A stretch of 64,000 bases of DNA from a virus, in IMG/VR virus record IMGVR_UViG_3300050019_000089, positions 1 through 64,000 of that record; one strand, 5' to 3'. Position numbers and translations under genes: made by a program. The notes beneath the pieces were generated by a model. That model was not told the DNA's origin. It worked only from the letters and a program-made list of their open reading frames with translations, and made no database searches. Each line of letters starts with the position of its first letter. Position 1 is the stretch's first letter. Positions 2,778 through 33,511 of this stretch are shown here, piece after piece.

Positions 2778-3056
2778 GTGGATGATCCAAAACCCACCCC
2801 CATTGCCGATGCTGTTTTAGCCGTTAAGACAACTGCGGTTCAGGCAGCTGATGCCCATTTGGACCCAGGCTGGCGCACGTCGTACAAATGGCATTCCCTC
2901 TGGGCGGCCGCGTTCTGGGGCTCTTTTGGTTGTATCCTGACCATTCTGCCGGTGTTCGTTACCTATGATAATCTTTTGTGGTTTGGCCCGCTCATGTTGC
3001 TCATGTCGGTCACATTTGCAATCGCGCGGTTCACTAACCAACCAGGGGTAGCGTAA
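2778..3056 (+). CDS. Putative holin
   Basis: 92 aa, GTG start two bases after the preceding stop. A short soluble N-terminus leads into HLDPGWRTSYKWHSLWAAAF followed by two hydrophobic segments (about residues 43-62 and 67-84). The W-(K/R)-x-S-Y-K-W lead-in before two transmembrane helices is typical of a small phage holin family, and the stop overlaps the endolysin start. By family knowledge it would permeabilise the inner membrane and time lysis. Confidence 0.7.
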   Translation: MDDPKPTPIADAVLAVKTTAVQAADAHLDPGWRTSYKWHSLWAAAFWGSFGCILTILPVFVTYDNLLWFGPLMLLMSVTFAIARFTNQPGVA

Positions 3057-3598
3057 TGGCCCAGCAAAGGAACCCGCTCACCCCGGTCGTCGTTGCCGCG
3101 GCATTTACCTTCCTGTGTACCTGGGAAGGTGTCAGCTATACAGCAAAACACGAGCGAATTGACCCCCCAGGGGTCATTACGGTCTGTAATGGGATCACCA
3201 ATTATGACCAGAAAAACCTGAAAGCAGGGGACCGGTTTACCCCGGTCCAGTGTCAAAAGCTGCTCTCGGGCGCCCTCCCCAAATATGACACTTGCATTCA
3301 GCGGTACGTTAAGGTAGATTTACCAGCTCACAGGCACGTTGCTCTGTTGAGCTATATCTACAACGTTGGCTGCGGTAACTTCCAGAAGTCGGCCACCTTA
3401 CTCGATTTGAACGCCGGCCGCAGTGAACAAGCCTGCGAGGATTTTGTCCCTTCAAGAGAAACGCTGGATCACGTTGCGGACTTAAAGGAACAGGGCCACG
3501 ATGTGAGACCAGGGATTACGACAGCTAACCACAAGTTCTTACCGGGCTTGATGAACCGACGCCGCGCCGAGCGCGTACTCTGTTTACGGGAGGATTAA
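3056..3598 (+). CDS. Endolysin, GH24 lysozyme-like (SAR type)
   Basis: 180 aa. A hydrophobic N-terminal stretch (PVVVAAAFTFLCTW) resembles a signal-arrest-release anchor. It is followed by WEG with the presumed catalytic Glu24, then Asp36 and a Thr at about 42, in the spacing of the T4-lysozyme E-D-T triad. The helical segment AHRHVALLSYIYNVGCGNF and the C-terminal GLMNRRRAERVLC are also classical for GH24 enzymes. It hydrolyses peptidoglycan beta-1,4 bonds during lysis. Holin upstream and spanin-like genes downstream complete the cassette. Several Cys residues could support SAR-type activation (inference). Confidence 0.9.
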   Translation: MAQQRNPLTPVVVAAAFTFLCTWEGVSYTAKHERIDPPGVITVCNGITNYDQKNLKAGDRFTPVQCQKLLSGALPKYDTCIQRYVKVDLPAHRHVALLSYIYNVGCGNFQKSATLLDLNAGRSEQACEDFVPSRETLDHVADLKEQGHDVRPGITTANHKFLPGLMNRRRAERVLCLRED

Positions 3599-3940
3599 AT
3601 GTTCTGGTTACCCTTTGAAATCTTCTGGGCCGCGGCCAAGCACTTCATCCTGCCATATGGCATCGGCGGTGTCATCATTGCCGCCTGCATCGTGCTCTAC
3701 TTCTTCACCGACATTCTTGGTGTCACGGTTGCAAATTGGCTCAGGCCGCTCCGAAATGACCTGATCTGGATAGCCTTAGTCACCGCCGGCGTGATGGTGT
3801 TCATGAGCTACATCGTGCATTTGAGCAACCAAGCCTGCGTGGACAAGCAAGTGGTCATCACCAATACCGTCCACAAGAAAGTCAATAAGGCCATACAGCC
3901 TTCAACGGCTCCTGACCCTTTCGACAACCCGGAGAACTGA
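3599..3940 (+). CDS. Membrane protein of lysis cassette (possible inner-membrane spanin or second holin)
   Basis: 113 aa starting directly after the endolysin stop. At least two hydrophobic segments are visible (about residues 18-36 and 55-73), followed by a charged tail CVDKQVVITNTVHKKVNKAI. Its place between endolysin and a lipoprotein suggests a spanin/holin role, but the topology is not that of a simple i-spanin. Function inferred from context only. Confidence 0.6.
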   Translation: MFWLPFEIFWAAAKHFILPYGIGGVIIAACIVLYFFTDILGVTVANWLRPLRNDLIWIALVTAGVMVFMSYIVHLSNQACVDKQVVITNTVHKKVNKAIQPSTAPDPFDNPEN

Positions 3941-3941
3941 T

Positions 3942-4205
3942 ATGAAGCGGTATTTCCTCCTAGCAGCGTCCGTGCTGCTCATGGGCGCGGCTAACCCTGG
4001 CGGGTGCGTGACCACGAGTGGCACCCAGGGCGACATATCCAACGTGTGCGAAGCTCTTGGAGCTAATGCCCTGCCCACCGCGCCCGGCGCTATCCGTTAC
4101 AACACCACCAGCAACAAGCACGGCCGAATAGCCGGCAACGTGCTGGGCCGTGATCTGGCCGCACGCAACAGGCTGGGGATCAGCCTGCACTGTCCGGGGT
4201 TCTGA
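3942..4205 (+). CDS. Secreted lipoprotein, spanin-like (Rz1-type)
   Basis: 87 aa with a clear signal peptide (MKRYFLLAASVLLMGA) followed by a Gly-Gly-Cys lipobox-like site around Cys22. The mature part carries CEALGANALPTAPGAIRY and ends DLAARNRLGISLHCPGF. The pattern of a Cys-Glu start and an NR(x)G(x)xLxC end is seen in small phage lysis lipoproteins, where it links to the outer membrane. Located directly after the lysis membrane protein. Confident it is exported; moderately confident of spanin function. Confidence 0.65.
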   Translation: MKRYFLLAASVLLMGAANPGGCVTTSGTQGDISNVCEALGANALPTAPGAIRYNTTSNKHGRIAGNVLGRDLAARNRLGISLHCPGF

Positions 4206-4206
4206 C

Positions 4207-4434
4207 ATGTTTGAAATGGTCGTGTATCTGGCAATATCTGCCACCGCAGCAACGCACCGGTATGAGCGAAAAGGCCTGGCTTTTCAGACCAAAGAGGTCT
4301 GCGAAACCTATGTTGCTAACAACGGGAAGCTAGATATTCTGACTTTGTTGATCCAGCTGGGCAAGGATGACCCTACCTTTGATCAATTTGAGGCGCGGGT
4401 AAAACCCGCTTGTGAGCTGATAAACAGGGCCTAA
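4207..4434 (+). CDS. Small hypothetical protein
   Basis: 75 aa from the ATG two bases after the preceding stop. A modestly hydrophobic N-terminus (MFEMVVYLAISATAA) is followed by a soluble, two-cysteine domain (VCETYV and PACELI), a layout common in small exported phage proteins. No family recognised. Confidence 0.55.
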   Translation: MFEMVVYLAISATAATHRYERKGLAFQTKEVCETYVANNGKLDILTLLIQLGKDDPTFDQFEARVKPACELINRA

Positions 4435-5418: not shown

Positions 5419-8169
5419 TTGGCCCCGATTAAAATTCAACAGTTCGGAGGAATGCTACCGGCCTGGGACACAACGTTGTTGCCCGAGGGTCAGGCCGCGC
5501 AATCTACCAATGGTTATCTGTTCTCCGGTAGCTGTACTGGATGGCGGCTCCCCAAACTGTTGCGTGCCCTGACAAACTCCGCGGCCAAATTTGCCTATCG
5601 CGTGCCGGTGATAACCAGTGCTGTGGCCGGCAACACGTTGTCTATCAACGTCCTCCCACTAGCCGGTGACACGGTAAAAATCGGGGAGGTGACCTACAAG
5701 TTCGTTGCCGCCTTGGTGAACCCATTTGATGTATTAATTGGTGTTGATGGAAACGCTTGCGCGATAAATTTATTTGCTGCAATCACTTTGTCCGCCGGCG
5801 CTGGTACTCTTTATGGCACTGGTACATATGCCAACATGGCGGTTGACCGGACCACACCCACCACGAAGAACTCTTTCGCGATTAGTAGCGGCGGCGGCGG
5901 TTTCCCTGGCGGTATTAACGTGGTAGCCGATGATCCTGGTGCCGCATACAATGGTACTACGACAACCGAGAGCACTGGCGGTGCTCGTATGAGTTGGGTA
6001 CACCCTTCGTATGTTGGAGGCGTGAATAAGTCATTTGACAGCACGATCACCGGACCAGCTACCTGGTTGGAGTTCCTGGACCAGGAAACCGAGGTAATGC
6101 GGTCACCGGTGGTCGATGACAAATTCAACCGCTATTATTTCTCTAGCCCTTCATTGGCACCGCAGTACAACACCTATGACCGCATTGTCGCGGGCTTGCC
6201 CGCTTGGGCGCTAGGGCTATACCCCCCTGGTGTTGCTCCGGCTGTCTCCGTTGCGGGGGGCGGCAACCAGACATTGCTAGGTTTGCCTACGTCCACGTCG
6301 ATCAATGATAATGTGCCCGGCGCCAATACAATATGGGTTGCACCAATTACCACTACCGGGGCTATGTCTTTGGATAGTATAGAGATTATGCCCGCCTCAC
6401 CCACCACGACTGGCAAATTTGCTGCCGTGCTCTACTCAGATAATCTAGGGGCTCCGGGCACTTTGGTCTCATTTGGTGGCATTATTACTGGCTGCATGAC
6501 CGGCGTGCCGATCATAAGTCAGTTCTCCCAGCCGCCAGGGCTGTTGAATGCCACGAAATACTGGATCGGTTTCATGACCGACACAGCCGTTGGTTTTCAG
6601 AAGGCTAATGACGTTGGGGCCGGCGGCGGCTTACAGCAATCGAACACTTGGACCAACGGGCCCCCGGGTATTTTCTCTGGCTCTACCGCTACTCCCGATT
6701 TCCAAATGTGGGCGAACTGTACTACGTCTTCAATCTTGGACGTGCGAGCCTATGTGTACACCTGGTTGTCTGCATATGGGGAGGAGAGCCCGCCTAGCCC
6801 GCCGACGCTCACTACCGGCTGGTCCAATGGTACTTGGACGATTAAGATGACGCCCCCCGTGCCGGATGACATGGGGGTAGTACGAAATATAACCACGATT
6901 AGAATTTATCGAACGGTGTCCGCTCTCACTGGATCAACAGTATTTTTCTGGGTGGGCGATATTGATATTGCCTCTAACTCGGTTACAACGGCCATTGACG
7001 CTCAAGCTACTGATGGCACTTTAGTGTCTACGGGTACCTTGCAGGTTGACGATACCTGGTCTGGTGCAATCATCGCGCAGAATTTTCAACTGCCCAGCAC
7101 AACCTGGTTCCCACCGGAGCAAGGTGTCAACGGTATTGTCGCTATGCCGAATGGCATGTCCGTCGGGTTCCGTGACAACGAGATATGGTTCTCCGAGCCG
7201 TATCGACCGCATGCATGGCCGCCGGGGTATGTCATCACCACGGAATTCCCTATTGTAGGTCTCGGGATAATTGGTACGTCCGTAGTAGCCGCGACGAACG
7301 GTGCCCCTTACGCTGCCTCCGGTGTCAACCCAGGTAGCATGACCTTACTCAAGTTCCCGGAGAGCGCCCCGTGTACGTCGCGTGGGTCCATCCTGGCTAC
7401 CAGTGAAGGCGTGTATTATTCCAGCACGAAGGGCCTGATCAAAATCGTGACTACCGGCCCGATGGTGAACACCACTGAAATGTGGATCACGCGGGATAAA
7501 TGGGCCCAGTTGACCCCGCAGAAAAACTTGCTTGCCGTCATGCAGTCATCGTGCTATTTTGCCTTCGGGACTATCGGCGCCGACGGTGATGCATCACAGG
7601 CCCAGAACGGGTTCACGATTGAATTGAACGCGGCAGATAGCTCGTCATTCACTATTTGGCCACAGCCTGGCGGCCATCGCATCGGGTTTAGCCAGCTGAC
7701 GGCGCCAAACGGCCAAGATATAGCCAATATAATTAATGATCCGTGGACCGGTATTACTATGTTGCTCCAGCAGGGCAACATTAACTACTATGACTTTACA
7801 GACGCGGTTCCTACTATACAGCCGTATATCTGGACCAGTAAGGTATATCAGCAGAAATTCAAGGACAACCTGGCGGCCATGCGGGTCTTCTTTAGCATCC
7901 CACCCGGGACGCCCGCACAGAATGCCAAGCGTAACGAGGCAGCCGCGGACGATGGAAGTTGGAGTACCCTCGACCCCGGGCAGTATGGGATTATCAGCGT
8001 GTACGGCGATGGCAACCTGGTCACGACCCGGGAGCTGGTATCGTCAGGCGAGCTGCTGCGGATCAACTCTGGCCAGAAATACGAGTTCTGGCAAGTGAGA
8101 GTAAATGCCAGGGTGGATATCTCCAATATCCAAATGGCGCCTACGGTTAAAGAATTGAGGGGGGTCTAA
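5419..8169 (+). CDS. Large tail (nozzle/tubular) protein
   Basis: 916 aa with a TTG start, supported by a strong Shine-Dalgarno sequence (cgaggagaatt) inside the end of the previous gene. The N-terminus IKIQQFGGMLPAWDTTLLPE, followed by AAQSTNGYLFSGSCTGW, matches the opening motif of large short-tail proteins in podoviruses (I.I..F.G..P....LLP...A..S.N). The middle (about 430-560) reads as fibronectin-like beta domains (DVRAYVYTWLSAYGEESPPS). No enzyme motif seen. Proposed role: tail tube/nozzle to which fibres attach. Confidence 0.7.
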   Translation: MAPIKIQQFGGMLPAWDTTLLPEGQAAQSTNGYLFSGSCTGWRLPKLLRALTNSAAKFAYRVPVITSAVAGNTLSINVLPLAGDTVKIGEVTYKFVAALVNPFDVLIGVDGNACAINLFAAITLSAGAGTLYGTGTYANMAVDRTTPTTKNSFAISSGGGGFPGGINVVADDPGAAYNGTTTTESTGGARMSWVHPSYVGGVNKSFDSTITGPATWLEFLDQETEVMRSPVVDDKFNRYYFSSPSLAPQYNTYDRIVAGLPAWALGLYPPGVAPAVSVAGGGNQTLLGLPTSTSINDNVPGANTIWVAPITTTGAMSLDSIEIMPASPTTTGKFAAVLYSDNLGAPGTLVSFGGIITGCMTGVPIISQFSQPPGLLNATKYWIGFMTDTAVGFQKANDVGAGGGLQQSNTWTNGPPGIFSGSTATPDFQMWANCTTSSILDVRAYVYTWLSAYGEESPPSPPTLTTGWSNGTWTIKMTPPVPDDMGVVRNITTIRIYRTVSALTGSTVFFWVGDIDIASNSVTTAIDAQATDGTLVSTGTLQVDDTWSGAIIAQNFQLPSTTWFPPEQGVNGIVAMPNGMSVGFRDNEIWFSEPYRPHAWPPGYVITTEFPIVGLGIIGTSVVAATNGAPYAASGVNPGSMTLLKFPESAPCTSRGSILATSEGVYYSSTKGLIKIVTTGPMVNTTEMWITRDKWAQLTPQKNLLAVMQSSCYFAFGTIGADGDASQAQNGFTIELNAADSSSFTIWPQPGGHRIGFSQLTAPNGQDIANIINDPWTGITMLLQQGNINYYDFTDAVPTIQPYIWTSKVYQQKFKDNLAAMRVFFSIPPGTPAQNAKRNEAAADDGSWSTLDPGQYGIISVYGDGNLVTTRELVSSGELLRINSGQKYEFWQVRVNARVDISNIQMAPTVKELRGV

Positions 8170-10365: not shown

Positions 10366-12945
10366 ATGGCATTCAATAATTTAGCAACCACAATGAAAGC
10401 TGCCCCTACTTTTGCGCAGCAACATTCGGCGTTTGCGAACCAAGTTTCAGCTTTTAACACCCCGCGACCTGCTGCACGGGCAGCCGCGCCTTTGCAATCT
10501 CATAGTGCAGCGTATCACGCCATAAGCCCTACTGGTATCGGTGCTGGGTTTCGCGGCGGTGTTTCAACTTATCAGGCCCCGGGTACAGCTAATTTTCATC
10601 CCGCAGCCACACCAGCGGCGCCGGCACGCGCCTTTGGCCAGCCGTTTGCGTCGCAAGCCGTTGGGGCCGGGGCGCGCCCTTCCCCGGGCGGGAATAATTA
10701 CGGCGGGATAGGAGCTATCACTGGCGGGCTAGGAACTAGCACGGGTGCTCCTGGAATGCATTTTGCCAGAGGCGGCGCTATTCCTGACCCCAACGATGAC
10801 GATACCCAATCTGGAGATCAGCAAGCAGATAACAGTAGCGCCCCCCGACCAATAGGCCCGAAGCCATCACGGCAAGGGGATCAACCAGTAAAGCCATTTG
10901 ATCCACGCGATTATCTGCCTGGTAAGCAGGCGAGTAGCGGGGCCATTCCCGAGAATGGCAGCGGACAGGGTACTGATATTAATGAAGCCATGGCTACCGT
11001 TGACCATGTACTACAGTTTGGACGTAGTCAAAGCGGACTAGGCGCACCTCCGTCTGCGATCCCCCAACCTAGTAATGATACACAGGGGTACGCGGCGGGC
11101 GGACCTGTACATAAGGGTGGACCTGGACGTAAAGGTAACAAGTTCAAAGGCTCGGAAGATGGTAGCGCTGGCGAAGGTGGACCGGATTTAAATTCCGATT
11201 TTCACTTTGGCGAGCAGGGTGCTGATGCAGAAGATGTACCACAGCCAGGTGCCGCTCCTGGTTCGCCGCAAACGTCTCCCCAGTATTCGCCTATGGGACT
11301 ACAGACACAGCCTAGCTATGCCGATGGTGGCGACATAGAAGACCCGGCCGATAGCAGCTTGGCGCCCCAGCAGGAAGCAATCCCGACAGGGGATACTCTT
11401 GAGCCGCCGCCCGATAGCGGTACTATGGGAAGCGCACAGGGTGCAACGGGCGAGGCCACTATGGCCGGCGGCGCGCAAGGCGCACAAGGTGTGGCTCAAA
11501 GTGATCCAAAGAAGATTGTCGGCTATCTGCAAGGCGCCGGGGCAGCTTCTGCCAAGGCAGTGCAAGCGGCGGAAGACGCCACGGGCGAAGATCAACCCGC
11601 TATGAAAGCGTTGGCCGTTATCAACGATGCATACAAGCACGGTGGCCCCGAAGCCGCGTGGCCGATCATGCAGTCTTATCGCCAGCAGCACGAGCTACAG
11701 ACCACACTGGCCAAGGTGAAACTCCAGGAAGGTAACGTGGCCGCCGCGGCGCAGGCCGCGACGGAAGCCGATGCTAATGTGCTCGATGGAACGCAGACCC
11801 ACTTTTCCCCGACTGTCGGGGGCCAGGGTGTCACCGCTACCACCGCGAAACTCGGCAACGATCAACCGTTCCAGCATATTAAACTGGGCCTCCAGCAATT
11901 TGGGCAATTCTTGGGTACCTTATATGACCAGAAAATGGACGAAAGCACGGCGGTCGCGCTCCAGAAAGCTAATAAGTCCGCAGGCGCTGCGGCTATGGGA
12001 AATATTGGTCCCACCGATGGTCCGAGTGACATAGGCAAGCAACTAGGTACCGCTGGCGCGGTAATCAGTAAAGGCGCGCAGGCTCTAGCGGAGCCTGTCC
12101 CAGACGCCCCTGCCGCTGGTGGTGAAGATGCTACGCCGGGTTCGCAAGCCGCTGGGCCGGGTCCTGATGCCGGTACTGAAACCAGTACTCCAACGGCGAA
12201 CCAGCCGATGATGATGCCGCCGCGTGGTGCTAGCCCGGTGGCTGCACCGCAGCCTGGTCAAGCGCAGCCGGCTCAACAGCAGCGCCCGCGAGTTGCGACT
12301 ACAATGGAGCAGGATCGCCGGGCAGCCGCCGAAGCTAGCTTCGGTAAGGAAAACGTTGACGCCGCATACCAGCAGTTCCCGGGCATTAATGAAAACCGAG
12401 CCCGCGCTAAATTCTTGAACGAAGGTCGCGCGACTGGTATTGAACAGACCAGCAGGGAAAAACAGGCCACAGCCAAACAAGAAGGGGAAACTGAACGCGC
12501 CAAAATGCATTATGGTCCTCAGGGGTCTGTTGATCGTACCAATGATGCAAGAGGACAGCAAAATCAAGCCCGTATTGATGGCCGAGCAGCCGAAACCAAT
12601 GCAAAACTTGTAGCCGCTGGCGGCCGAGAGCTAACCAAGGAACAGAACGATGTTCTGAAAAGCGCGATAGCTCAGAACCCGCGCTTGTCGCAGGACCCGA
12701 TGGCTGCGATAGCCTTCGCTAAACGGTTACAAGAGAATTGGGCGGCGCCTGCAAACACGTCAGTAGGAACCTCGGGAGTGAATAGCGGCGTACGAACACC
12801 CGGGTCCCAGGTGGCCGCACCTACTTATCCTACACCAACGGCGGACCATATACGGGGTCTACAACAGAACCCAAAAATGGCGGCCGCATATGACGCGAAA
12901 TTTGGTCCAGGGGCATCGGCTAAAGTTCTACGCGGCGGGCAGTAA
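10366..12945 (+). CDS. Large internal virion protein (859 aa)
   Basis: Starts 3 nt after the preceding gene. It is Ala/Gln/Gly/Pro-rich throughout, with long helical Ala-Gln tracts (LQEGNVAAAAQAATEADANV) and little sequence complexity. The short motif aromatic-Ala-x-Gly-Gly appears three times (FARGGAIPDP, YAAGGPVHKG, YADGGDIEDP), linking it to its neighbours. The stop overlaps the next start (TAATG). Size, composition and position suggest an ejection/core protein; no catalytic motif is visible. Confidence 0.65.
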   Translation: MAFNNLATTMKAAPTFAQQHSAFANQVSAFNTPRPAARAAAPLQSHSAAYHAISPTGIGAGFRGGVSTYQAPGTANFHPAATPAAPARAFGQPFASQAVGAGARPSPGGNNYGGIGAITGGLGTSTGAPGMHFARGGAIPDPNDDDTQSGDQQADNSSAPRPIGPKPSRQGDQPVKPFDPRDYLPGKQASSGAIPENGSGQGTDINEAMATVDHVLQFGRSQSGLGAPPSAIPQPSNDTQGYAAGGPVHKGGPGRKGNKFKGSEDGSAGEGGPDLNSDFHFGEQGADAEDVPQPGAAPGSPQTSPQYSPMGLQTQPSYADGGDIEDPADSSLAPQQEAIPTGDTLEPPPDSGTMGSAQGATGEATMAGGAQGAQGVAQSDPKKIVGYLQGAGAASAKAVQAAEDATGEDQPAMKALAVINDAYKHGGPEAAWPIMQSYRQQHELQTTLAKVKLQEGNVAAAAQAATEADANVLDGTQTHFSPTVGGQGVTATTAKLGNDQPFQHIKLGLQQFGQFLGTLYDQKMDESTAVALQKANKSAGAAAMGNIGPTDGPSDIGKQLGTAGAVISKGAQALAEPVPDAPAAGGEDATPGSQAAGPGPDAGTETSTPTANQPMMMPPRGASPVAAPQPGQAQPAQQQRPRVATTMEQDRRAAAEASFGKENVDAAYQQFPGINENRARAKFLNEGRATGIEQTSREKQATAKQEGETERAKMHYGPQGSVDRTNDARGQQNQARIDGRAAETNAKLVAAGGRELTKEQNDVLKSAIAQNPRLSQDPMAAIAFAKRLQENWAAPANTSVGTSGVNSGVRTPGSQVAAPTYPTPTADHIRGLQQNPKMAAAYDAKFGPGASAKVLRGGQ

Positions 12946-15900
12946 TGTCTAACTATTTCGACCAGTTTGATGCTGCTCCAGAGCAGCCTCCTGAGCCCGC
13001 ACCTGCGGATAGCCAACCCGCGCCGGAACCCCAAAATTTCTTTGACCGGTTTGATGACGCGCCGCCAGCAGTAGTACCGCCAGCAGCTGCACAGCAGCAG
13101 CCCGCTCCCACTCAACCTGCAACAGAGCCACAAAACTACTTTGACCAGTTTGACAAAGAACAGGAAACCCAAGGCCCAGAAGCCGAAGGCCTCGCTGCTA
13201 CCGTTGCACGTAGAGCCGCTCATAGCGCTGTACCAACAATTGGCAGCGTGCTAACCGCCGGCGCAGTAGGGGCGACCATAGGTGGTCCAATTGGCTTTGC
13301 AGCTGGTATTGGCACAGCTATGGCTTCCGGGTATGTTTTGGACAGCTTCCAAGAGCGTGCATTGAAAGCCTTGGGTGTAGACGACAGTGCCCAGTTGCGA
13401 GCCAATGCTGAGGAAAATCCGAAATCAGACGTTGTCGGTGGACTGGTCCCGTTGGTGGTTTCTTTTGGCGCCAGCTTAACCGAGAAATTGGCCTCGTACC
13501 TGTTACGTGGCGGCATAATGGGCGGGATAAACATAGGGCAGCAGCTAGCCGAGAAGGGTGAAGTAGACCCATTCGAAGCAGGTATGAACACCGCCGCGGG
13601 CGCATTGCTAGCCAAGCCACGAGGGTTTTTTCAACCATATAAGGCCGGCGCTGAAAAGGCCGGCGCTGCTGTAGGTACAGCTGTAGGCAAAGCATTCCGC
13701 CCTGGGCACCCTGGCGATGCTGCGCCTGGCGCTGTCGATGATAGAGCCGCGGCAGACGCCAATGATGTTACAACTAACGCAGCTGGCATTGCCGCAGAGA
13801 ACGGCCCCGTAGTCACACCTAAGCCCGGTACTGTCGGGCAGCCGGTCAACCAGTGGGATTATGACCAGATACTGGCTGGCTCGCGGCGGGAATTCCATAA
13901 AGATGAAAACGTAATTAGCTCAACAGATATTGAAAAACCCGGGCCACCTAAGTCGGGTAAAACTGGTTTCACCACGGGAGATATTGATCCGGCCACCGCT
14001 TCGGTGCTCAACCCTGACTACGTTGCACCGTCTGACCAGCCTAACGTGGACCAGCCACGGCAGCCACCAATTTCTGACACGCTGCCTGACCTCCAGGGTG
14101 AACACGCTAAAGCCGTTCTGGACGCTACCCACGAAGGTATGCAGAACGTTGGGCAAGGAAGCCGCGGCGAACTGCCAGCAGATGCATTTGACCCGCCGGC
14201 CAACAAGACGTTGCCTAAGCAACCATATCCCGGGGCAGAAGAAGCCAGTATTCCGCCTAACGCCAAGCCTACTATGCAGGAAGGTCCCGCTCAATCGAAT
14301 TTTGATGCACAGTTGAAGGCGGCGCAATCGCTCTCCGAGGCTCGCCCGCAGGCGCAAGCTGCTCCCGTTCAGGAGCAATCTGCTGCACAGCAGCCCCCTG
14401 TAGCACGGCCCCGAGCACGCCCGACGACTGACCAGGCCATAAGCGCGTTGCCCAAGCTCGATATGAAGGGCGGTACTCCGCTGCCGGACAACAGCCCGTT
14501 CAAGGAAGCTTTGGGTACGATAGAGAACCTGAAAGCCGGCATTGACAAAGCCCGCGAGAACCCCGGCGACCAGACCATGCGTGAGGCCGCAGATCATGCC
14601 CAGAAACACTATGACAATATAACTAAGGCTAATTTAGTAGCTGAAACGGTGGCACGGTTGCGCGCGGCTGGGGGTAAATATACCAAGGTGGCAGACGACA
14701 TAGCAGCTATGGCGCCGGGCCCAAAACAAATACAAGCCGCGGCTAAAATGAACGCAGGGATGCACAACCAGAGTGGTGGTGTAAAGAACCCGACCGCGGA
14801 AATTAAGAACCCGCGCATACGTAACGACCAGCCTAGGCTGAATATTGCTGACCTAAAAAACGCTGCCGGCAAGCCTATCAAGGGGAATGATCTAGAGGAC
14901 GCCAGAATAAAGACCCAAGCAATCAGAGCTACGGAGGCCGTGGTTAATGCGCCGCCCGAGCATTGGTTTCCAAAGTTCGAGCCCCGGGCAGGGGAAAGCC
15001 GCACGGATGCCTGGACGAGAGCTACTGCCGGTGAAACCGATGCAGAGTTGCGGACACGCGCCAAGAATATGCTGGTAGAAGCCGCTAATCATAACGGGGG
15101 TGAAAACCCGCTCAAGACATATACCTTGAACGGCGTAGACAAACCTAGAGAATGGTCGTTGCTGCGGGAAGCTCAAAAGCTGATACGCGGAAAAGGGCAT
15201 ACGACACCGGAGAAGTTTCGTACCAATGAGCTGCTCCATCGGGGCACCGATGAGCAATATGAAAGCTTCAAAGCCAGCAACAAGGCAGAGGCCGACCGCG
15301 CACTGAACCCGCGCAAGGGCGACGAAGCTGTTGCTGGAGCTGAGGCCCAGCAGGCCAAGATTAAGGCGAGCGCACCAGAGGAAGAACAGGAAAGCCTCCG
15401 CGACCGACGCTTACGGGAGGAAAAGGAAGACCGTGAAAGCGATGTAAACAACGCATTTAAGGGTGATCTTTCTGGAAGCGCACCAGATAAAACCACCGAA
15501 AAATACCTCGCCGCAGCTGAGGAGAAGCCGGCTATCGAGAAATCGGCCAAGCAGATAACTGACGAGGCTACAGCGGCTACACGCGCAAAAATGGCTGCCT
15601 TGAAAGCCAAGCGCCTGGCAAAAGCTAATTGGGACGCAATGAGCGAGGCTGAGAAAATTGCGGCGCCGCAGAAGAACCCAGAAACGATGACCCGCGACCA
15701 GATGCCGAAGACGGATTTGGAAACCGCGACCGAAAAATTAAAAGCCGGGATCGACAAGCAGATTAAAGATAATCCCGCGGGAAGCGCCGCACCTGGTGAG
15801 CGCCAAACCTTGGCCATGAGGCGGCCAAAAAAGAACTTAGGGGACACTCTAAAAGACCAGCAGGCAGAACGGGCGGCCAAGGCTAACGAGGCCGTGCAGG

Positions 15901-18131
15901 AACGGTTAAAGGGTGGCGTCGGCGCGCCGGCGGAAGTGCCCGCGGCTGTAAACAAGAGCCTGGAACCAAAGGGTGGTCTATTCAAGAAAATATTTGCCCC
16001 GGAAACAGTATCAAAAGACGCCGAAGGCGCCGCGGGCTTGATCCGCAGTAAGGGCGGCGTACGGGCCCGAGACCTGGCTATCGCTTCTAATCGCATTGAG
16101 CCCTTCCGTAAGCAGATCAACCAGGCTCCGGAAGCGGATAAAGTAGAGTTCATGAAGGCAATGGACACCGGCAAGGACGCGGGTAGGTTCCAGCCGCTGG
16201 CCAAGGTTCTGAACGATGCCTTCGGGAATGTTAAATCAAAACTAGAAGCGCTGCCTTCTATGGCCAAGCAGGAATTTGTTACAAATTACTTCCCGCATAT
16301 GTTTGAAAATGCCAAAGCGGCCAAGGAATTTGTCAATAGCTACTATGACAAGCAGGGCTCAGCCGCCAGCCTCCATGAACGTACGATGCCAACGATCCAA
16401 GACGGTTTGAACGCTGGATTAAAGCTGGCTACCACGGACCCCCTGGAAGTGTCGTCACGCTACCTGGCCAGTATGCACAGTTTTATCGAGGCCACCGATA
16501 TTCTGGACACCGCCAAAGACGCCGGCATCGTAAAGTTTTTTGACAACAAGACAGTGGGTGCCTCCGGGTCTGGTACCAGCCTGATACCAGAAGGCTATGC
16601 GCCCTTGCTCGGGCGCGGCGGTCCTACTAGCGGGCATGGCCAGGGATACGCGCCTGAGGACTGGGCGCGGGTGTACAACAACTACATCAGCCAGGGCTTC
16701 CACGGGAATGCTGAAAGTGGCAAAGTTTTTGACGCCCTCCAGCATACGTCCAATTCGGTTACTGCTCTGGAACTAGGTTTGTCCGGCTACCACGCTTTTA
16801 CGATGGCCAAAGAAGCCATCATCAGTGATTTTGCCAAGGGAATATCTCAAGTTATGAGCGGTGACATAAGCAAAGGGGCAAAATCTATTGCCAAGTCTAT
16901 AGCCGCACCGGTCACGTCATACAAACAGGGCTATCTACCGCAACAACAATATTTGGGGCTGCACGAAGGCACCCCTGAAATGCAAAAAGTGGTGGACCTG
17001 ATGACCCGGTCTGGCGCTCGCATGATCGGGGCTCGACATGACCCGACGTACAAATTCTCTGCCGAGGGATCGTTCTTTACCGCATGGAAGCGCGGCGCCC
17101 TGAAACTGCAACTGGACGAAGCCATCAACCGAGTGAAAGACGCGGGTGAAGGAGATGCAGTTACCGTGCAAGGGGTTGCCAATCAAGGAATACAAGCCGG
17201 TAAAGAGCTATTCCGTGTTGTTGGCCGCACGCTGGAGACAGTTGCCCAGCCTCTGTTCCAAAAATATATTCCGCAGCTCAAGAACGGCGCGTTCTATGAC
17301 ACGTTATCTGAATGGGTTAGCGCCAACCCTCATGCTACTGATGAACAGTCCGTGGCTATGGCGCGTAAGATCGGTGACAGCATAGACAACCGCTTCGGTG
17401 AAATGGTCCAAGATAATATTTTCTGGAATAAGGCTATGAAGCAGTCCGCGCAGCTAGCCATGCGGTCGTACTCGTGGAACCTGGGCACCGTGCGCGAGAT
17501 CGGCGGCGGCGCTCTGTCTCTGCTCACCGACCCATCGCGCCTGAAATTGTCACACCCTGACTACGATCCGCGCGCGGCCTATACGGTGGCCATGCCGGTT
17601 GTCATGGCGTTGACCTCTATGGCATATCAATATCTAAAGACCGGAGAAGGCCCGCACGACAGTACCGATTTAATGGCCGGTCGTACCGGGGGCAAGACAA
17701 TACGGGGAAACCCGGAACGCGCCATGCTGCCAGGGTATGAGAAAGACGTATATGGCTGGTTCCATGATCCATCATCAGAGGCCCGTAATAAATTGTCCAC
17801 GGCACCGCGGTTGGTCTGGGAAACGCTGGCCAATAAAGACTATAAGAACGACCCAATCGCTAACGCTAACGATCCCTTTGTTGGACGGATGGGGCAATAT
17901 CTCGGACATGTCATAGACAGTCTGGGTCCGATTTCCTACAAGCAAATAACTAAGGGCGAAAAATTCGGTTCTAATATAACGCTGCCAGAACGGGCCACAG
18001 CCATTCGGCCAGCGCCAACGTGGATGACAGACCCGGATACCGTGAATAACTCCATTAGAAAATCCAACAGTAGGCAGTGGAAACTCAAGGAATATCACGA
18101 TAAACGCGAAAATGCTGCCTACGGACAGTAA
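12945..18131 (+). CDS. Giant internal virion/ejection protein (1728 aa)
   Basis: The N-terminus has three copies of an N-[YF]-F-D-[QR]-F-D motif (residues 3-9, 31-37, 64-70) separated by Pro/Ala/Gln linkers, which look like docking peptides. A Gly/Ala-rich hydrophobic region follows (about 95-135, AVGATIGGPIGFAAGIGTAM), possibly membrane-interacting. A very long charged helical region runs to about 1000. The C-terminal 600 residues form a better structured domain (KQEFVTNYFPHMFENA; YHAFTMAKEAIISDF) reminiscent of large polyvalent phage proteins. No lytic transglycosylase motif is seen. By analogy with T7 gp16 or P22 ejection proteins it may enter the host with the DNA (inference). Confidence 0.7.
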   Translation: MSNYFDQFDAAPEQPPEPAPADSQPAPEPQNFFDRFDDAPPAVVPPAAAQQQPAPTQPATEPQNYFDQFDKEQETQGPEAEGLAATVARRAAHSAVPTIGSVLTAGAVGATIGGPIGFAAGIGTAMASGYVLDSFQERALKALGVDDSAQLRANAEENPKSDVVGGLVPLVVSFGASLTEKLASYLLRGGIMGGINIGQQLAEKGEVDPFEAGMNTAAGALLAKPRGFFQPYKAGAEKAGAAVGTAVGKAFRPGHPGDAAPGAVDDRAAADANDVTTNAAGIAAENGPVVTPKPGTVGQPVNQWDYDQILAGSRREFHKDENVISSTDIEKPGPPKSGKTGFTTGDIDPATASVLNPDYVAPSDQPNVDQPRQPPISDTLPDLQGEHAKAVLDATHEGMQNVGQGSRGELPADAFDPPANKTLPKQPYPGAEEASIPPNAKPTMQEGPAQSNFDAQLKAAQSLSEARPQAQAAPVQEQSAAQQPPVARPRARPTTDQAISALPKLDMKGGTPLPDNSPFKEALGTIENLKAGIDKARENPGDQTMREAADHAQKHYDNITKANLVAETVARLRAAGGKYTKVADDIAAMAPGPKQIQAAAKMNAGMHNQSGGVKNPTAEIKNPRIRNDQPRLNIADLKNAAGKPIKGNDLEDARIKTQAIRATEAVVNAPPEHWFPKFEPRAGESRTDAWTRATAGETDAELRTRAKNMLVEAANHNGGENPLKTYTLNGVDKPREWSLLREAQKLIRGKGHTTPEKFRTNELLHRGTDEQYESFKASNKAEADRALNPRKGDEAVAGAEAQQAKIKASAPEEEQESLRDRRLREEKEDRESDVNNAFKGDLSGSAPDKTTEKYLAAAEEKPAIEKSAKQITDEATAATRAKMAALKAKRLAKANWDAMSEAEKIAAPQKNPETMTRDQMPKTDLETATEKLKAGIDKQIKDNPAGSAAPGERQTLAMRRPKKNLGDTLKDQQAERAAKANEAVQERLKGGVGAPAEVPAAVNKSLEPKGGLFKKIFAPETVSKDAEGAAGLIRSKGGVRARDLAIASNRIEPFRKQINQAPEADKVEFMKAMDTGKDAGRFQPLAKVLNDAFGNVKSKLEALPSMAKQEFVTNYFPHMFENAKAAKEFVNSYYDKQGSAASLHERTMPTIQDGLNAGLKLATTDPLEVSSRYLASMHSFIEATDILDTAKDAGIVKFFDNKTVGASGSGTSLIPEGYAPLLGRGGPTSGHGQGYAPEDWARVYNNYISQGFHGNAESGKVFDALQHTSNSVTALELGLSGYHAFTMAKEAIISDFAKGISQVMSGDISKGAKSIAKSIAAPVTSYKQGYLPQQQYLGLHEGTPEMQKVVDLMTRSGARMIGARHDPTYKFSAEGSFFTAWKRGALKLQLDEAINRVKDAGEGDAVTVQGVANQGIQAGKELFRVVGRTLETVAQPLFQKYIPQLKNGAFYDTLSEWVSANPHATDEQSVAMARKIGDSIDNRFGEMVQDNIFWNKAMKQSAQLAMRSYSWNLGTVREIGGGALSLLTDPSRLKLSHPDYDPRAAYTVAMPVVMALTSMAYQYLKTGEGPHDSTDLMAGRTGGKTIRGNPERAMLPGYEKDVYGWFHDPSSEARNKLSTAPRLVWETLANKDYKNDPIANANDPFVGRMGQYLGHVIDSLGPISYKQITKGEKFGSNITLPERATAIRPAPTWMTDPDTVNNSIRKSNSRQWKLKEYHDKRENAAYGQ

Positions 18132-18154: not shown

Positions 18155-18502
18155 ATGCCTAGTACGACACCTAAAGAAGCCCGCCTGATGGCCGCCGTGG
18201 CCCACGGTTGGCATAAACCCGGGGGCGGCGGCCCCTCTGTGAAGGTCGCCAAAGAGTTTAACAAAGCAGATAAAGGCACAACCATGTTGAGCAAAGGGAT
18301 GAAACCTCAAACTGCGTCCTACGCCGCCGGCGGCCCCGTCTTGGGCAAGGAAAGCTCATTTATGAAGGTCAAGGACGAGTTCCGTGACGCCGACGAAGGG
18401 GACGCATCAGCAGACGAAGACCAGAACTATGCCAAGTCCGGCGCCGGTGCTGGCAAGGGCTTCGTGAAGCCGCCTGGGAATACGAAGAAAGTAATCAAGT
18501 AG
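18155..18502 (+). CDS. Small virion-associated protein with AAGG motif
   Basis: 115 aa. Contains YAAGGPVLGK, the same aromatic-Ala-x-Gly-Gly motif found in the large internal proteins upstream. Otherwise charged and probably disordered, ending in basic residues (KPPGNTKKVIK). The N-terminal SVKVAKEFNKADKG is partly echoed by SFMKVKDEFRDADEG, suggesting an internal duplication. Likely a minor virion component. Confidence 0.6.
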   Translation: MPSTTPKEARLMAAVAHGWHKPGGGGPSVKVAKEFNKADKGTTMLSKGMKPQTASYAAGGPVLGKESSFMKVKDEFRDADEGDASADEDQNYAKSGAGAGKGFVKPPGNTKKVIK

Positions 18503-18508
18503 CGTAAA

Positions 18509-18700
18509 ATGCGTGACTATCCTAAATCAGGTAGGCGGTACGAAGACGGCGGGGACATTGTACCCTCTAATCAACCGTATGATAATCCTTTCACGATTGA
18601 GGGCCAAAACACGCTGCCTTCTGATAAGGAAATGGGCGCCGCAAAGCGTGATCTAACAACGCTGTTAAAAGCGCGAGCAAAATCTCAGTCAAATAAGTAA
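18509..18700 (+). CDS. Small virion-associated protein with EDGG motif
   Basis: 63 aa beginning 6 nt after the previous gene. Carries RRYEDGGDIVPSNQP near its N-terminus, close to YADGGDIEDP in the 859 aa protein, and a helical basic C-terminus. Probably a further minor member of the same internal-protein set. Confidence 0.55.
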   Translation: MRDYPKSGRRYEDGGDIVPSNQPYDNPFTIEGQNTLPSDKEMGAAKRDLTTLLKARAKSQSNK

Positions 18701-18717
18701 GATATCGGAGCATCCCC

Positions 18718-18957
18718 GTGCGGCCTGTCTACATCATTGCCATTCTGGCATTGCTCCAGCTTACCAGCCCTGACGGAGCCACTCTCTGGATTTCACCAGA
18801 CGACATTGGCCCATTCCGTTCTGGTAAGGGAGCCGGGCATGCGTGTGAAAAAGGTACAATCCTATATGGTGGCGCGGAACAAACATTTTGCGTCAAAGAG
18901 ACACCCGAGGAAATAAATAAAAAAATAGACGAACACGGGAAAAAAGAAGATGAATAG
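18718..18957 (+). CDS. Small secreted or membrane-anchored protein
   Basis: 79 aa, GTG start with ggag 9-12 nt upstream. Hydrophobic leader MRPVYIIAILALLQLTSPDGA looks like a signal peptide; the mature part has two Cys and a highly charged Lys/Glu C-terminus. Overlaps the start of the SPFH-like gene by 8 nt, implying coupled expression. Function unknown. Confidence 0.55.
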   Translation: MRPVYIIAILALLQLTSPDGATLWISPDDIGPFRSGKGAGHACEKGTILYGGAEQTFCVKETPEEINKKIDEHGKKEDE

Positions 18958-19513
18958 CACCCTCATTGAAATGATCCTGAACAACTTAATGTCGTTGTTC
19001 CCGTTTGTGATCTTCCGCAGCTACCAGCGCGGGGTGCGTTGGACGCTTGGTAAAAATCCCCAGGAACTCGGACCTGGCCCGCACTGGAAGATTTGGCTGT
19101 GGCACGGCTGCGAAGTCTACGATGTAGTTGACGAGGTTCTCGATTTACCCGTGCAGTCCGTTATTACAAAAGACAAGAAGCTGGTTTGCTTTTCGGTCAA
19201 CATTGGCTACCGCATTAACGACGTAATTTCTCATTGCTGCAACGTGCAAGATTTCACTGAGAGCACCGCTGGTATTGCCATGACGCATCTGGCCCAGCGG
19301 GTCCGTGAAATGACATTGGAAGAACTGGAAGCTGACCTGAAAAAGCTGGAGGTGTCGTTGGAAGGCACCCTGACTACCCGCATGAAGAAATGGGGAACCG
19401 AAGTTTACAGCGTTGGCTTCACCAACTTTGCAGAGGTCCCCCGGCAGATGCGAATATTCCTGGGCGGTCACGAAAGCGCCCATTCACTGGCTGCTCTAGC
19501 CGCCGCCCGTTAG
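18950..19513 (+). CDS. SPFH/Band-7 (stomatin-like) domain protein
   Basis: 187 aa. An N-terminal hydrophobic segment (LIEMILNNLMSLFPFVIF) is followed by RSYQRGVRWTLGKNPQELGP and a beta-rich stretch ending in VQSVITKDKKLVCFSVNIGY, then a helical region and GTEVYSVGFTNFAEVPRQMR. This order matches the stomatin/prohibitin (SPFH) fold, which organises membrane microdomains and protease complexes. It is the last late gene on this strand, and its stop overlaps the convergent primase stop. In a phage it could protect or remodel the host membrane before lysis or interfere with FtsH-type proteases (inference). Confidence 0.75.
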   Translation: MNSTLIEMILNNLMSLFPFVIFRSYQRGVRWTLGKNPQELGPGPHWKIWLWHGCEVYDVVDEVLDLPVQSVITKDKKLVCFSVNIGYRINDVISHCCNVQDFTESTAGIAMTHLAQRVREMTLEELEADLKKLEVSLEGTLTTRMKKWGTEVYSVGFTNFAEVPRQMRIFLGGHESAHSLAALAAAR

Positions 19514-22488
19514 AGTTTAGTTTCCTCTTTTACTATTTGTTTGTAAATGTTCATCACGTCTTCCAGTGGAGAACCTTCTGGAACAGGAATAATCATAACA
19601 AATTCCTGTGTCTGCACATAGCGCGTGCCGGCGGCCATCTTAATAAACACTTCCGCCATATCATAATGATCTTTCAATCCACGTTTTAACGTCGCACCGG
19701 GGGTCTTCGATACCGCCAGGTAATCATAGAACGCCTTGCGCGAGATTAGCAAGCGCCGGTCGTTGATCGCCCAGTGAACGTTGATAGGCTTGGGTATGTC
19801 AACGCGGGGTCCATGCAGAACTTGCAAGGCGGCTGGCTTACCCCGCCCTTGGTTGAATGTATCTGTCCACAAGCTCTCGCCAATATGAGCCTTGAGGAAC
19901 CCAGTTAGTGTTTCTTCGGTGTTCATTTGTGAACCGCCCTTTGTGTTAGCCTGCTTGCAACGTTCGCGGTTGACAAAGTAGGTCTTCAACAGGAACGCAC
20001 GGAGCGCCGGTATGTCAATTTCGGCACCCAACTGATTGGCAAAGGTAGCCCCCGCCAACAGAATACCACACGTAGCTGGCCAGTACCGTTCCGGCTGCTC
20101 GGACTTGGTTTCGGCCTCAAAGTCGTCGCACATTTTCTTTGTTATGCGGTCAATTTCAGCCGGATTGGACCCCAGCATCTTGGCATATTCAGCGCCGACC
20201 ATCCCATAATTATACTCCAGCACCTGCATGATACGGTCCACGTCTGATGTACTGGACAAGACGCCCGGTGCCCCAGCAGGGCTCTTGATAAACTCATACT
20301 CGTACACCCGATATATACCGGCGTCGGTCTGGGTCTGCCTTTTTGACAGATAGTCAACAAAACTGGTGTTAGAGCAAAAGATAATCAGTGTCTGCCAATG
20401 TGCCCGTTTCTTTTGTGTCGAGTTAGCATTCAAGCGTCCCTTGTTCACACCTTCCGATGCCATGAACAAGTTGTCGTAGGCTTTCTTTTGATCCTCGTCT
20501 TCGCGTATTTCATCCCGGTATACCGGCAAGTTGTTAACCTCTCCCAGTTTCTCCACCATAGAGTTGGTCGTGGTAGACCCAACTTCCTTGGTCAGCTTCG
20601 GGTTACCCCAGACAGCCGCGGCCACCTTGGCAGCAGTGGACTTACCGCCGCCGCTCTCACCGAAAACGCTCAACACGCATCCATATTTTGCCGGCACAAC
20701 CAGCAGCGGGGCCGCGAACGACGACGCAATAACGGCGTCCAGCTCCGGACGCTTCATATCGGTGATCACCTTAGCCGCCTTCAACCAGGGAGCAATAGAA
20801 CCGGTCGGAGTATAGTACTCGCGCAATTCCAGATCACCTACGCCGGCCGGGGACGTAGTGTTGTCGTCATGGTAGATAACTCCACCATATACGAAGCCGT
20901 GCCGTTCGGTGCTCTCGTCGTCTTTCGTATAGAGCCACCCAAACGGGCGTGATATTAGCGCTGTTTCGGCGTCTTGTATTTGTGCTATCCAAGCGTGCAT
21001 GAAACCCTCCGCTAAAGCCTTATATCTGTGGACCGGGATAACGTCCTGCTTGTACAGACTTATCCACATGACGGTACTGCTAGCTAGCAGTTCCAGCTGT
21101 ATGCTGACTTTCCTGGTAATACCTTTATCAGCGGTCGTGATAAAGTTCAGTGCTTTGGGCCCAGCTTGAACCCAAGGTTTAAAGAACTTGTTGTAAAACA
21201 ACTGGAGATAATGGTCTGGTGCCCCAGGCTTTTTAGACGGTACCACCGCACAGATATAGCCGTCCGGATTGAGGACGTACCCTGGCGGTAATTTCAAATC
21301 GTCTGGAGCCTTAATTAATGTAACGGTGCCCTCTACCGCCGTGGCAACAACTGGAGCGCCGAGATTGAGTGGCGACTTACCTTTTGCAAAATTCGGACAA
21401 ATCGCGCACGCCTTGCAGCCGGCAGCTTGAATTGCAGCACAAGAGGGGTACCCAAGACCCTTATCCTTACGTTCTTTACTTTTTCGATCCCAGAGCTTGT
21501 CAGTGCTCTCAACAGTATATCCGCTGTGTCCTTTACCCATTCTGTGGGCCAACGCATGTCCGTGCTCCATGAATGTTGCCGCTAACGTGGTCAAGTTCCA
21601 CATTGGCTGGTCATAGTCCTTGCCCTCGGTCTTCAACGCGTCCCGTATGAACGCGCAGCCGTTGACAATATTATCAAAGTCCAATGACTGATCGCTGTAA
21701 GTCGTCAGACCAGCGGCCAGGCTATCTTTCGGTAGCGCAGCCAGCAACGGCGAAGGTGTCGATGGCTGGTCAGCGTTAATGAAAAACGTCTTGTTGGCAA
21801 CGGTTGTCGCCATGGGCGATATCACTGCCAGGAAACCGAGGCTGCGGGCAAAGTCGTAGTCGAGTGACTGTTCCCGCAGCCCCAGCAGCCTCACGGGCCG
21901 AGGCGGTGTAGTCTTGTAGTTGAACGTATCCGGGACACGCAAGATGCGAGCAGCATCCGTGGTCAATCCAGCGTCACAACGCAGTTCATGCTTGACCGCC
22001 AGTGCCTTGAGCCCTTGAGCATAAGGCTCCCACTCGGCCTTGGACAGAGCACGGTCTGAAATCCAGTAGACATGTAGACCCCCGCCCGAATGCACTATTG
22101 CCGACGGGGGTGGTAGATCGGCGGCAATGCGAAACGCCTGGAGGGCGTCTAGTGCTTCGGCTAAATCCTTATACCCCTTTGGGGGGTCTTTAACGTCAAT
22201 GTCCAGCCAGATGGACTTGAGTGACAACGCCAGCGACGCGTGGCGCTTGGCGACCAGACCTCCACGGTGATTTTTGGCAGCTTCTGCCTGTAGGCTGAGG
22301 CAATAGTATAAATCCTTGATCGTTTCCTTGCGGTTGGCCCAGTCGGCCATCTTCATGAACTCGTCCAACGACTTGAATGGTTTCCCGCTAAATGCCGGCG
22401 CCCATACAAGATCGACGTAGCCGGGTGCTGTTGCACCCGGCCACGGAACTACTCTGCTCATAAACTCGCGAGTTTGGTCAGATAGCAT
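19510..22488 (-). CDS. Primase-helicase (AEP-type primase plus P-loop helicase)
   Basis: 992 aa. The N-terminal third carries archaeo-eukaryotic primase signatures: LDIDVK with Asp96 and Asp98, SAIVHSGGGLHVYW with His133, and ARILRVPDTFNYK. A Cys-rich segment (about 355-375, GCKACAICPNF) may bind zinc. The C-terminal half has a Walker A, FGESGGGKSTAA, and a Walker B-like VYRDEIREDE, as in DUF927/viral SF3-like helicases. It should prime and unwind DNA at the phage fork. It is the promoter-distal gene of the leftward operon, its stop overlapping the convergent SPFH gene. Confidence 0.88.
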   Translation of the reverse strand: MLSDQTREFMSRVVPWPGATAPGYVDLVWAPAFSGKPFKSLDEFMKMADWANRKETIKDLYYCLSLQAEAAKNHRGGLVAKRHASLALSLKSIWLDIDVKDPPKGYKDLAEALDALQAFRIAADLPPPSAIVHSGGGLHVYWISDRALSKAEWEPYAQGLKALAVKHELRCDAGLTTDAARILRVPDTFNYKTTPPRPVRLLGLREQSLDYDFARSLGFLAVISPMATTVANKTFFINADQPSTPSPLLAALPKDSLAAGLTTYSDQSLDFDNIVNGCAFIRDALKTEGKDYDQPMWNLTTLAATFMEHGHALAHRMGKGHSGYTVESTDKLWDRKSKERKDKGLGYPSCAAIQAAGCKACAICPNFAKGKSPLNLGAPVVATAVEGTVTLIKAPDDLKLPPGYVLNPDGYICAVVPSKKPGAPDHYLQLFYNKFFKPWVQAGPKALNFITTADKGITRKVSIQLELLASSTVMWISLYKQDVIPVHRYKALAEGFMHAWIAQIQDAETALISRPFGWLYTKDDESTERHGFVYGGVIYHDDNTTSPAGVGDLELREYYTPTGSIAPWLKAAKVITDMKRPELDAVIASSFAAPLLVVPAKYGCVLSVFGESGGGKSTAAKVAAAVWGNPKLTKEVGSTTTNSMVEKLGEVNNLPVYRDEIREDEDQKKAYDNLFMASEGVNKGRLNANSTQKKRAHWQTLIIFCSNTSFVDYLSKRQTQTDAGIYRVYEYEFIKSPAGAPGVLSSTSDVDRIMQVLEYNYGMVGAEYAKMLGSNPAEIDRITKKMCDDFEAETKSEQPERYWPATCGILLAGATFANQLGAEIDIPALRAFLLKTYFVNRERCKQANTKGGSQMNTEETLTGFLKAHIGESLWTDTFNQGRGKPAALQVLHGPRVDIPKPINVHWAINDRRLLISRKAFYDYLAVSKTPGATLKRGLKDHYDMAEVFIKMAAGTRYVQTQEFVMIIPVPEGSPLEDVMNIYKQIVKEETKL

Positions 22489-33019: not shown

Positions 33020-33199
33020 TTAATCCTTCTTGGCTAGCTTGCGGAACGGCTCCATAGCCGGCATCTTGGCTCGTATCAAGGCGCTGCACACCTTAGGCAG
33101 CACGCCACCGTTCTCTAGGAACGGGAACTCGTCGCACTCGCAAGGCACGCCCGACCACGGACAAGCGTTGATATGCGTATAAAGGGGAATGTCAGTCAT
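33020..33199 (-). CDS. Small Cys-containing protein
   Basis: 59 aa from the ATG at 33199 (ggaggaa 10-16 nt upstream). N-terminus has CPWSGVPCECDEFPF, a tight Cys cluster that may bind metal; C-terminus is basic and helical. Follows the tRNA pair on the same strand. Function unknown. Confidence 0.5.
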   Translation of the reverse strand: MTDIPLYTHINACPWSGVPCECDEFPFLENGGVLPKVCSALIRAKMPAMEPFRKLAKKD

Positions 33200-33392
33200 T
33201 GCGACAAGTTCCTCCACAATCCTCACGACATTCATTGCACGGATAGGTATTGGCGCTCCCTGATGGATTTGAACCACCGTTTCCTGCCTGAGGGGGCCGG
33301 CGTCCTGGGCCGCTAGACGAAGGGAGCATGGGTGTAGGTATCCCTAAAATAGAGCGCATGAAGTCTGAGCTTGGCATCTTGTCAACCATATC
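33192..33392 (-). other. Open reading frame reading through the first tRNA gene
   Basis: An ATG at 33392 with a good ribosome site (aggag, 6-10 nt upstream) opens 66 codons that pass straight through the downstream tRNA sequence and end in a Cys-rich tail, CNECREDCGGTCRND. The stop overlaps the start region of the next gene. Either it is a fortuitous frame through a tRNA, or coding and tRNA functions overlap. The part inside the tRNA has the composition typical of tRNA translations, so I lean to fortuitous. Confidence 0.25.
33251..33327 (-). tRNA. tRNA, Glu-like body, 8-nt anticodon loop (isotype uncertain)
   Basis: Reads GCTCCCT...AGGGAGC (perfect 7-bp acceptor), D-arm GTCTAGCGGCCCAGGAC as in bacterial tRNA-Glu, T-arm GGTGG-TTCAAAT-CCATC, discriminator G and encoded CCA. 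The anticodon stem CCGGC/GCAGG has one central mismatch and closes an 8-nt loop CCCCTCAG. One reading gives CTC (Glu, GAG codons); a four-base anticodon CCTC is also possible. Position 33 is C, not the near-universal U. A second copy lies 80 nt upstream on the same strand. Confidence 0.7.
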
Positions 33393-33406
33393 AAACTCCT
33401 GCGAAT

Positions 33407-33483
33407 TGGCGCTGCCGGCTGGATTTGAACCAACGTTTCCTGCCTGAGGGGGCTGGCGTCCTAGGCCGCTAGACGAAGGCAGC
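33407..33483 (-). tRNA. tRNA, second Glu-like copy with 8-nt anticodon loop
   Basis: Reads GCTGCCT...CGGCAGC (6 of 7 acceptor pairs), D-arm GTCTAGCGGCCTAGGAC, anticodon arm CCAGC-CCCCTCAG-GCAGG with a central A-A mismatch, T-arm GTTGG-TTCAAAT-CCAGC, discriminator G and CCA. Compared with the other copy, acceptor pair 4-69 and T-stem pair 50-64 have changed on both sides, which indicates selection for pairing. The anticodon loop and flanks are identical between copies. A 10-bp hairpin precedes its 5' end. Confidence 0.7.
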
Positions 33484-33488
33484 TTGGT

Positions 33489-33511
33489 CACCGGGGGATT
33501 GTCCCCCGGTG
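33489..33511 (-). promoter_or_regulatory. GC-rich hairpin 5' of the tRNA pair
   Basis: CACCGGGGGA pairs with TCCCCCGGTG around a 3-nt loop: ten perfect, mostly GC pairs. It lies between the stop of the gene ending at 33526 and the 5' end of the tRNA at 33483. No T run follows on the transcribed strand, so it may be a processing or stability element rather than an intrinsic terminator. Confidence 0.6.

Follow-up and report, generated by a model that had tools for sequence, protein, structure and literature searches.

What use would a bacteriophage have for a stomatin-like protein? The question is raised by an open reading frame at 18950..19513 (plus strand, ATG start, 187 residues) in a 64,000-nucleotide stretch of viral DNA, positions 1 to 64,000 of IMG/VR record IMGVR_UViG_3300050019_000089 (hereafter the window), in which an earlier note had recognized an SPFH pattern. 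That recognition is borne out. The Band_7 profile search proposed there as a check, in which a lack of any SPFH match was to count against the reading, returned a match over residues 23-159 (Pfam PF01145, E 3.4e-17; 63.5 bits, cut-off 23.6), and the same cut-off is exceeded by the other seven members of the family described below. With this protein as query, phmmer recovers archaeal and human stomatins from the PDB (best E 2.9e-9). An AlphaFold2 model built from seven phage sequences has pLDDT of about 82-90 over residues ~60-160, the SPFH2 part, with a dip at 91-100, and is poor before residue 58 (the SPFH1 half and the N-terminus) and after 165; Foldseek matches it to stomatin at E 8.8e-9, and VIA-align superposes residues 52-168 on stomatin 4fvf_B with Z 16.9 and rmsd 2.5 over 117 aligned residues. 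The product is thus a genuine but minimal SPFH-domain protein, a hydrophobic N-terminus (~3-22) followed by SPFH1 (~23-57) and SPFH2 (~57-165) alone, with a 20-residue tail and no coiled coil; we refer to it as mini-SPFH. An NfeD gene of the QmcA-YbbJ type was not matched by Pfam in mini-SPFH or the four neighboring upstream proteins, and PADLOC returned no match.

What is missing is the part that makes a cage. In ordinary SPFH proteins the cage is closed by wall helices, cap helices and a strand at the C-terminus, according to PMC12344292. Mini-SPFH ends about 20 residues past SPFH2, its AlphaFold2 model shows no long C-terminal helix, and neither a C-terminal coiled coil nor the wall and cap helices of cage-forming SPFH proteins were found in it. 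In each of the eight phage members the Band_7 alignment breaks off at position 110-145 of the 176-position profile, while the 284-residue prohibitin of phage RHEph10 covers positions 2-176. No hidden C-terminus can follow, because the stop codon of a convergent gene for a 992-residue primase/helicase-like protein (19510..22488, minus strand) overlaps that of mini-SPFH; in the relatives L003 and L011, as in the window, the downstream gene is convergent or abutting. As a cellular yardstick we took 40 genomes from a single phylum, which the title of contig L041 gives as Acidobacteriota and which is not the likely host group, and by reading the 150 Band_7 frames listed of the 184 found we counted one shorter than 250 residues, a partial match. 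A good many of the SPFH proteins of phages are full-length: the RHEph10 prohibitin as query matched 99 of 50,697 phage records, including records of 37-48 kb, so a missing coiled coil is not the rule among them. These matches and published cases also qualify the idea that such proteins are rare in small phages, which is only partly right.

The N-terminus, MNSTLIEMILNNLMSLFPFVIF, had been called a clear membrane anchor. A short hydrophobic stretch containing a proline is indeed there, but it is hydrophobic over only ~11-19 residues, its best 19-residue Kyte-Doolittle mean is 1.66 (starting at residue 4, with Pro18 inside; 1.04-1.78 across the seven members scanned), and model confidence is below 50 from residue 14, so "clear" overstates it. 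Pro18 is conserved in the four close members. In human stomatin a proline links two short hydrophobic helices that enter the bilayer half-way (PMC12344292), and by analogy the N-terminus of mini-SPFH is probably half-inserted, or monotopic, rather than transmembrane. Positive charges follow the stretch (R23, R27, R30 and K35) and none precedes it, which by the positive-inside rule suggests that the SPFH domain faces the cytoplasm.

Mini-SPFH belongs to a family of short phage proteins. Seven more distinct versions came from scans of IMG/VR: L003, L005 and L011 make up a close clade, with 66-76% identity to the window protein, and L009, L027, L029 and L046 a distant one, at 18-21%, and across this whole range of 18-76% identity all eight are 184-190 residues long. 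One sequence stands for each group of near-identical contigs: L005 for L004 to L007 (L004 and L007 at least 97% to L005, L006 seen only with the same neighboring ORFs), L003 for the identical L002, L009 for L010, L027 for the fragment L028, and L029 for L045. In the G+C-rich relatives, where greedy longest-ORF calling favored antisense ORFs over the SPFH gene, frames were confirmed by tblastn. Judged from dN/dS of 0.05 against L003 and 0.09 against L011, purifying selection on the gene is strong, although synonymous sites approach saturation; the gene is old and constrained rather than a recent copy.

The gene also moves. Between the window and G001 it encodes the most similar shared protein (79.8%), ahead of an SNF2-type helicase at 65.6% and the primase-like protein at 46%, in a ranking that leaves aside a 71% match to an antisense frame over 21 residues. 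Only mini-SPFH (69%) and a 35% lysozyme match are common to G002 and the window, and G008 shares mini-SPFH (67%), a small partner protein (34%) and five matches of 21-38%; the gene therefore travels between otherwise different phages. The window protein found nothing by tblastn at E 0.01 among the 50,697 phage records, so at that sensitivity none of those records is an isolate of the close clade. A first scan of genome contigs found no mini-SPFH, and the sole match of a second, L041, was rejected as a prophage relative, being an ordinary bacterial SPFH protein of 263 residues. A plasmid search gave three weak matches of 28-33%, one annotated hflK.

In the window the gene lies at a junction between late and early genes. 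On the plus strand, a gene for a 1728-residue protein (12945..18131), the last large one of the late region and, by its position, probably a virion gene, is followed by one for a 115-residue phrog_16759-like protein (18155..18502) at the late-side edge of the junction, a 63-residue ORF with no family match (18509..18700) in the same operon, and a partner-SPFH gene pair that closes the late strand. Both L003 and Rhizobium phage RHph_TM27A, the latter with a replication region in common with the window phage (primase 33%, helicase 54%), have a homolog of the 115-residue protein at this junction. In L003 the two-gene cassette (5759-6558, against 18700-19513 in the window) is inverted at this convergent junction and follows the primase-like gene, and RHph_TM27A carries other small genes there, membrane proteins among them; the junction looks like a cargo site. 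The RHph_TM27A homolog of the window primase/helicase-like protein, EVB29_077 (L008 11974-15057, 33%), is annotated 'putative integrase', probably a misnomer. Elsewhere in the window, two tandem tRNA genes on the minus strand (33254-33327 and 33410-33483) score 39.5 and 33.1 bits with Rfam RF00005, both above the gathering score; ARAGORN reports only one of them, with its anticodon undetermined, and a 99-residue ORF at 33192-33491 is a translation of these genes and not a protein gene. In the structural gene region, the N-terminal half of a 667-residue protein (53912-55915) resembles the beta-1,4-glycosyltransferase family phrog_13126 (E 8e-28).

Location at the end of the late region, as described in the earlier note, holds for the window but not for the family. 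In L005 the gene is flanked by exonuclease and ssDNA-binding protein genes, in L011 it lies between portal and head-morphogenesis genes, in L009 and L027 it is upstream of a 625-636-residue ORF read by eye as a terminase, and in L029 it adjoins a DNA methyltransferase gene. In L046 it stands beside small membrane ORFs and ORFs with weak spanin-like matches: it is followed by an ORF with a transmembrane segment and coiled coil (3766-4047) that weakly matches Rz spanins and by a small hydrophobic ORF (3998-4246), possibly a lysis neighborhood. With operon contexts differing so much among phages, the time of expression is not conserved, and the varied positions argue against a stage-specific assembly role.

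That a gene common to unrelated viruses is so strongly conserved suggests that mini-SPFH acts on the host membrane during infection. We tentatively favor a reading in which it would be an accessory oligomer of the inner membrane, facing the cytoplasm, that alters the organization of the host membrane or its proteolysis. The N-terminus would dip into the cytoplasmic leaflet in the manner of stomatin's hairpin, leaving the SPFH domain in the cytoplasm, and the retained last strand of SPFH2 would pair molecules into dimers, arcs or low open rings that could not close the walled cage of full-length SPFH proteins. Isolated stomatin SPFH domains dimerize through residues 162-168 of PhStom (PMC9663324). 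By the VIA-align ranges this segment corresponds to residues ~156-162 of the window protein and is present in mini-SPFH. Mapped onto the alignment, the acid of the E59-R70 intersubunit contact of stomatin would fall at Ser24 of mini-SPFH, so that the ability to form stomatin-type rings may not be retained. Such an oligomer might insert into and spoil host cytoplasm-facing SPFH assemblies of the stomatin, QmcA or flotillin type, or might fence off a membrane patch of its own; either way, it would change how host membrane proteins are organized or degraded. Used through the whole infection as an accessory factor of host takeover, it would have a role tied to no single stage, which the variable operon context fits.

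An unlikely alternative is that mini-SPFH serves as a scaffold for the export or placement of its small partner, and that the pair acts at the envelope in superinfection exclusion or the timing of lysis. The partner gene (18718..18957, plus strand, GTG start) encodes 79 residues with two cysteines and a short hydrophobic N-terminus, from which the protein is probably exported. The coupling of the two genes asserted in the earlier note is sound (they overlap by 8 bases, and their counterparts in L003 by 4), but "secreted" holds only in part for a protein whose sign of export is a short hydrophobic N-terminus. Profile scans, superseding a single-sequence scan that found none, detected relatives of the partner in three contigs of two lineages, all beside an SPFH gene. 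In three of the four close-clade phages, those of the window, L003 and L011, it adjoins that gene, lying upstream in L003 and downstream in L011 (where its start at 6576, an ATG inside a longer ORF, was picked from the alignment and a GGAGG ahead of it); counted by genome, the two are adjacent in the window, in G001 and, with the order swapped, in G008. The same scaffold idea has been put forward for the SPFH protein MbpS of Kayvirus and the secreted Tgl (PMC7150955). Against it, no partner was seen beside the SPFH gene in L005 or the four distant members, and the partner diverges much faster than mini-SPFH; the pattern-seeded scan for relatives is of low sensitivity for a 79-residue protein. 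The partner found no match among phage records and only noise in the PDB (best E 0.4), and its predicted structure (pLDDT 45.7) is too poor to use; an identity with FlbD (PF06289) was rejected as below cut-off (E 0.14, 12.2 of 24.7 bits, over 19 residues).

A little less probable still is that mini-SPFH modulates FtsH, by joining or mimicking HflK/HflC and so protecting phage proteins from the protease or redirecting it. The complex is a known node of phage decisions (PMC1838920, PMC3053222), and all seven members scanned weakly match the HflK profile TIGR01933 and six of the seven that of HflC, but the scores lie far under the equivalog cut-offs (32.3 of 159.4 bits for TIGR01933, 21.9 of 134.4 for TIGR01932). 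L009 and L027, two distant relatives, have a 4-base overlap between the SPFH gene and a gene (L009 1435-1863, L027 4320-4745) whose 141-142-residue product carries a conserved HEXXH motif, HELVH; Pfam gives no match to this protein up to E 10, and it may possibly be a phage zinc metalloprotease coupled to the SPFH protein. The SPFH domain of HflK and HflC is periplasmic, whereas mini-SPFH lacks a full transmembrane helix and its charges imply a cytoplasmic domain. Inhibition of FtsH through HflKC, as the earlier note had it, is thus possible but disfavored by topology, and no known FtsH substrate was identified in the window.

We regard a late function in virion assembly or lysis as improbable. 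The SPFH pair does provide the last late-strand genes in the window, the L011 gene lies among head genes, and the L046 gene has its spanin-like neighbors, but the L003 gene is on the primase strand, the L005 gene is among recombination genes (the exonuclease and ssDNA-binding genes), and RHph_TM27A, close kin of the window phage, has no Band_7 match. The window moreover has a separate lysis-like cluster (2778..4205, plus strand) with a 92-residue holin-like protein and a 180-residue endolysin encoded at 2778-3598, followed by a 113-residue membrane protein and an 87-residue protein with a lipoprotein-like start, which makes lysis unlikely as the sole role. That mini-SPFH is a functionless truncated relic of a host stomatin, as its lack of the final third to half of an ordinary SPFH protein might suggest, is scarcely credible given strong purifying selection, constant length in eight versions and spread among unrelated phages.

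Returning to mini-SPFH as an accessory membrane oligomer, it is tempting to speculate more broadly, if with considerable doubt, that cage-less SPFH proteins of ~187 residues are a family passed around among phages, working either as a membrane ring left open or by poisoning the SPFH cages of the host, and coupled in different phages to different effectors, an exported two-cysteine protein in one clade and an HEXXH-motif protein in another. If true, phages would have a membrane-proteostasis module of their own, one that resembles HflKC-FtsH by analogy and not by descent. Should mini-SPFH spoil or replace host SPFH assemblies, it would also offer a genetic tool for bacterial membrane microdomains.

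Among known systems, mini-SPFH is most readily set beside stomatin (human, and P. horikoshii PH1511/PH0470; PDB 4fvf, 3bk6, 9z7u), with which it shares the SPFH2 fold, a proline-bearing hydrophobic N-terminus and the SPFH1 signature G-R-G-PG-H; it differs in being only ~19-27% identical, in its much shorter hydrophobic stretch, and in lacking the wall helix, cap helix and C-terminal beta-strand. With HflK and HflC it has the SPFH domain and the weak profile match in common, but it has neither their clear transmembrane helix nor their coiled coil and likely sits on the opposite side of the membrane. The periplasmic domain of FliL (PDB 7sgn, Z 12.0) likewise combines one membrane segment, a probable one in mini-SPFH, with an SPFH-like domain and no coiled coil, but FliL is flagellar and 12% identical. 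FliL has a role in rings. Closer in size is BFVD A0A6J7WFI0, the 173-residue 'HflK' of an uncultured Caudovirales phage (Foldseek E 2.5e-7, 15% identity).

SPFH genes have been reported from T4-like phages (PMC1524935), Stenotrophomonas phage DLP3 (PMC7326821), Alteromonas phage V22 (PMC7289586), Kayvirus, where MbpS was linked to Tgl secretion (PMC7150955), satellite phage AH14b, where a connection with lysis-lysogeny was proposed (PMC4936722), and GIB1, for which the reason for phage carriage is called unclear (PMC13239085); a Caulobacter phage paper was discarded, its 'band 7' being a gel band. The full-length proteins (RHEph10, DLP3 ORF 69, MbpS, and those of T4-like 44RR, Aeh1 and RB43) are also phage-borne, and membrane roles have been proposed for them, but the RHEph10 'prohibitin' has 284 residues and DLP3 ORF 69 has 264, and none of the RHEph10, DLP3, MbpS or T4-like proteins was found by tblastn with the window protein at E 0.01. 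In the available text of open-licence accounts of phage SPFH proteins, we found no description of a short cage-less one. Phage SPFH genes, small ones included, are therefore already in print, and it is the short cage-less anatomy that looks less ordinary: minimal, conserved, mobile and accompanied by small partners, mini-SPFH may be an easier handle on what phages want with SPFH proteins than the 260-280-residue versions of large phages.
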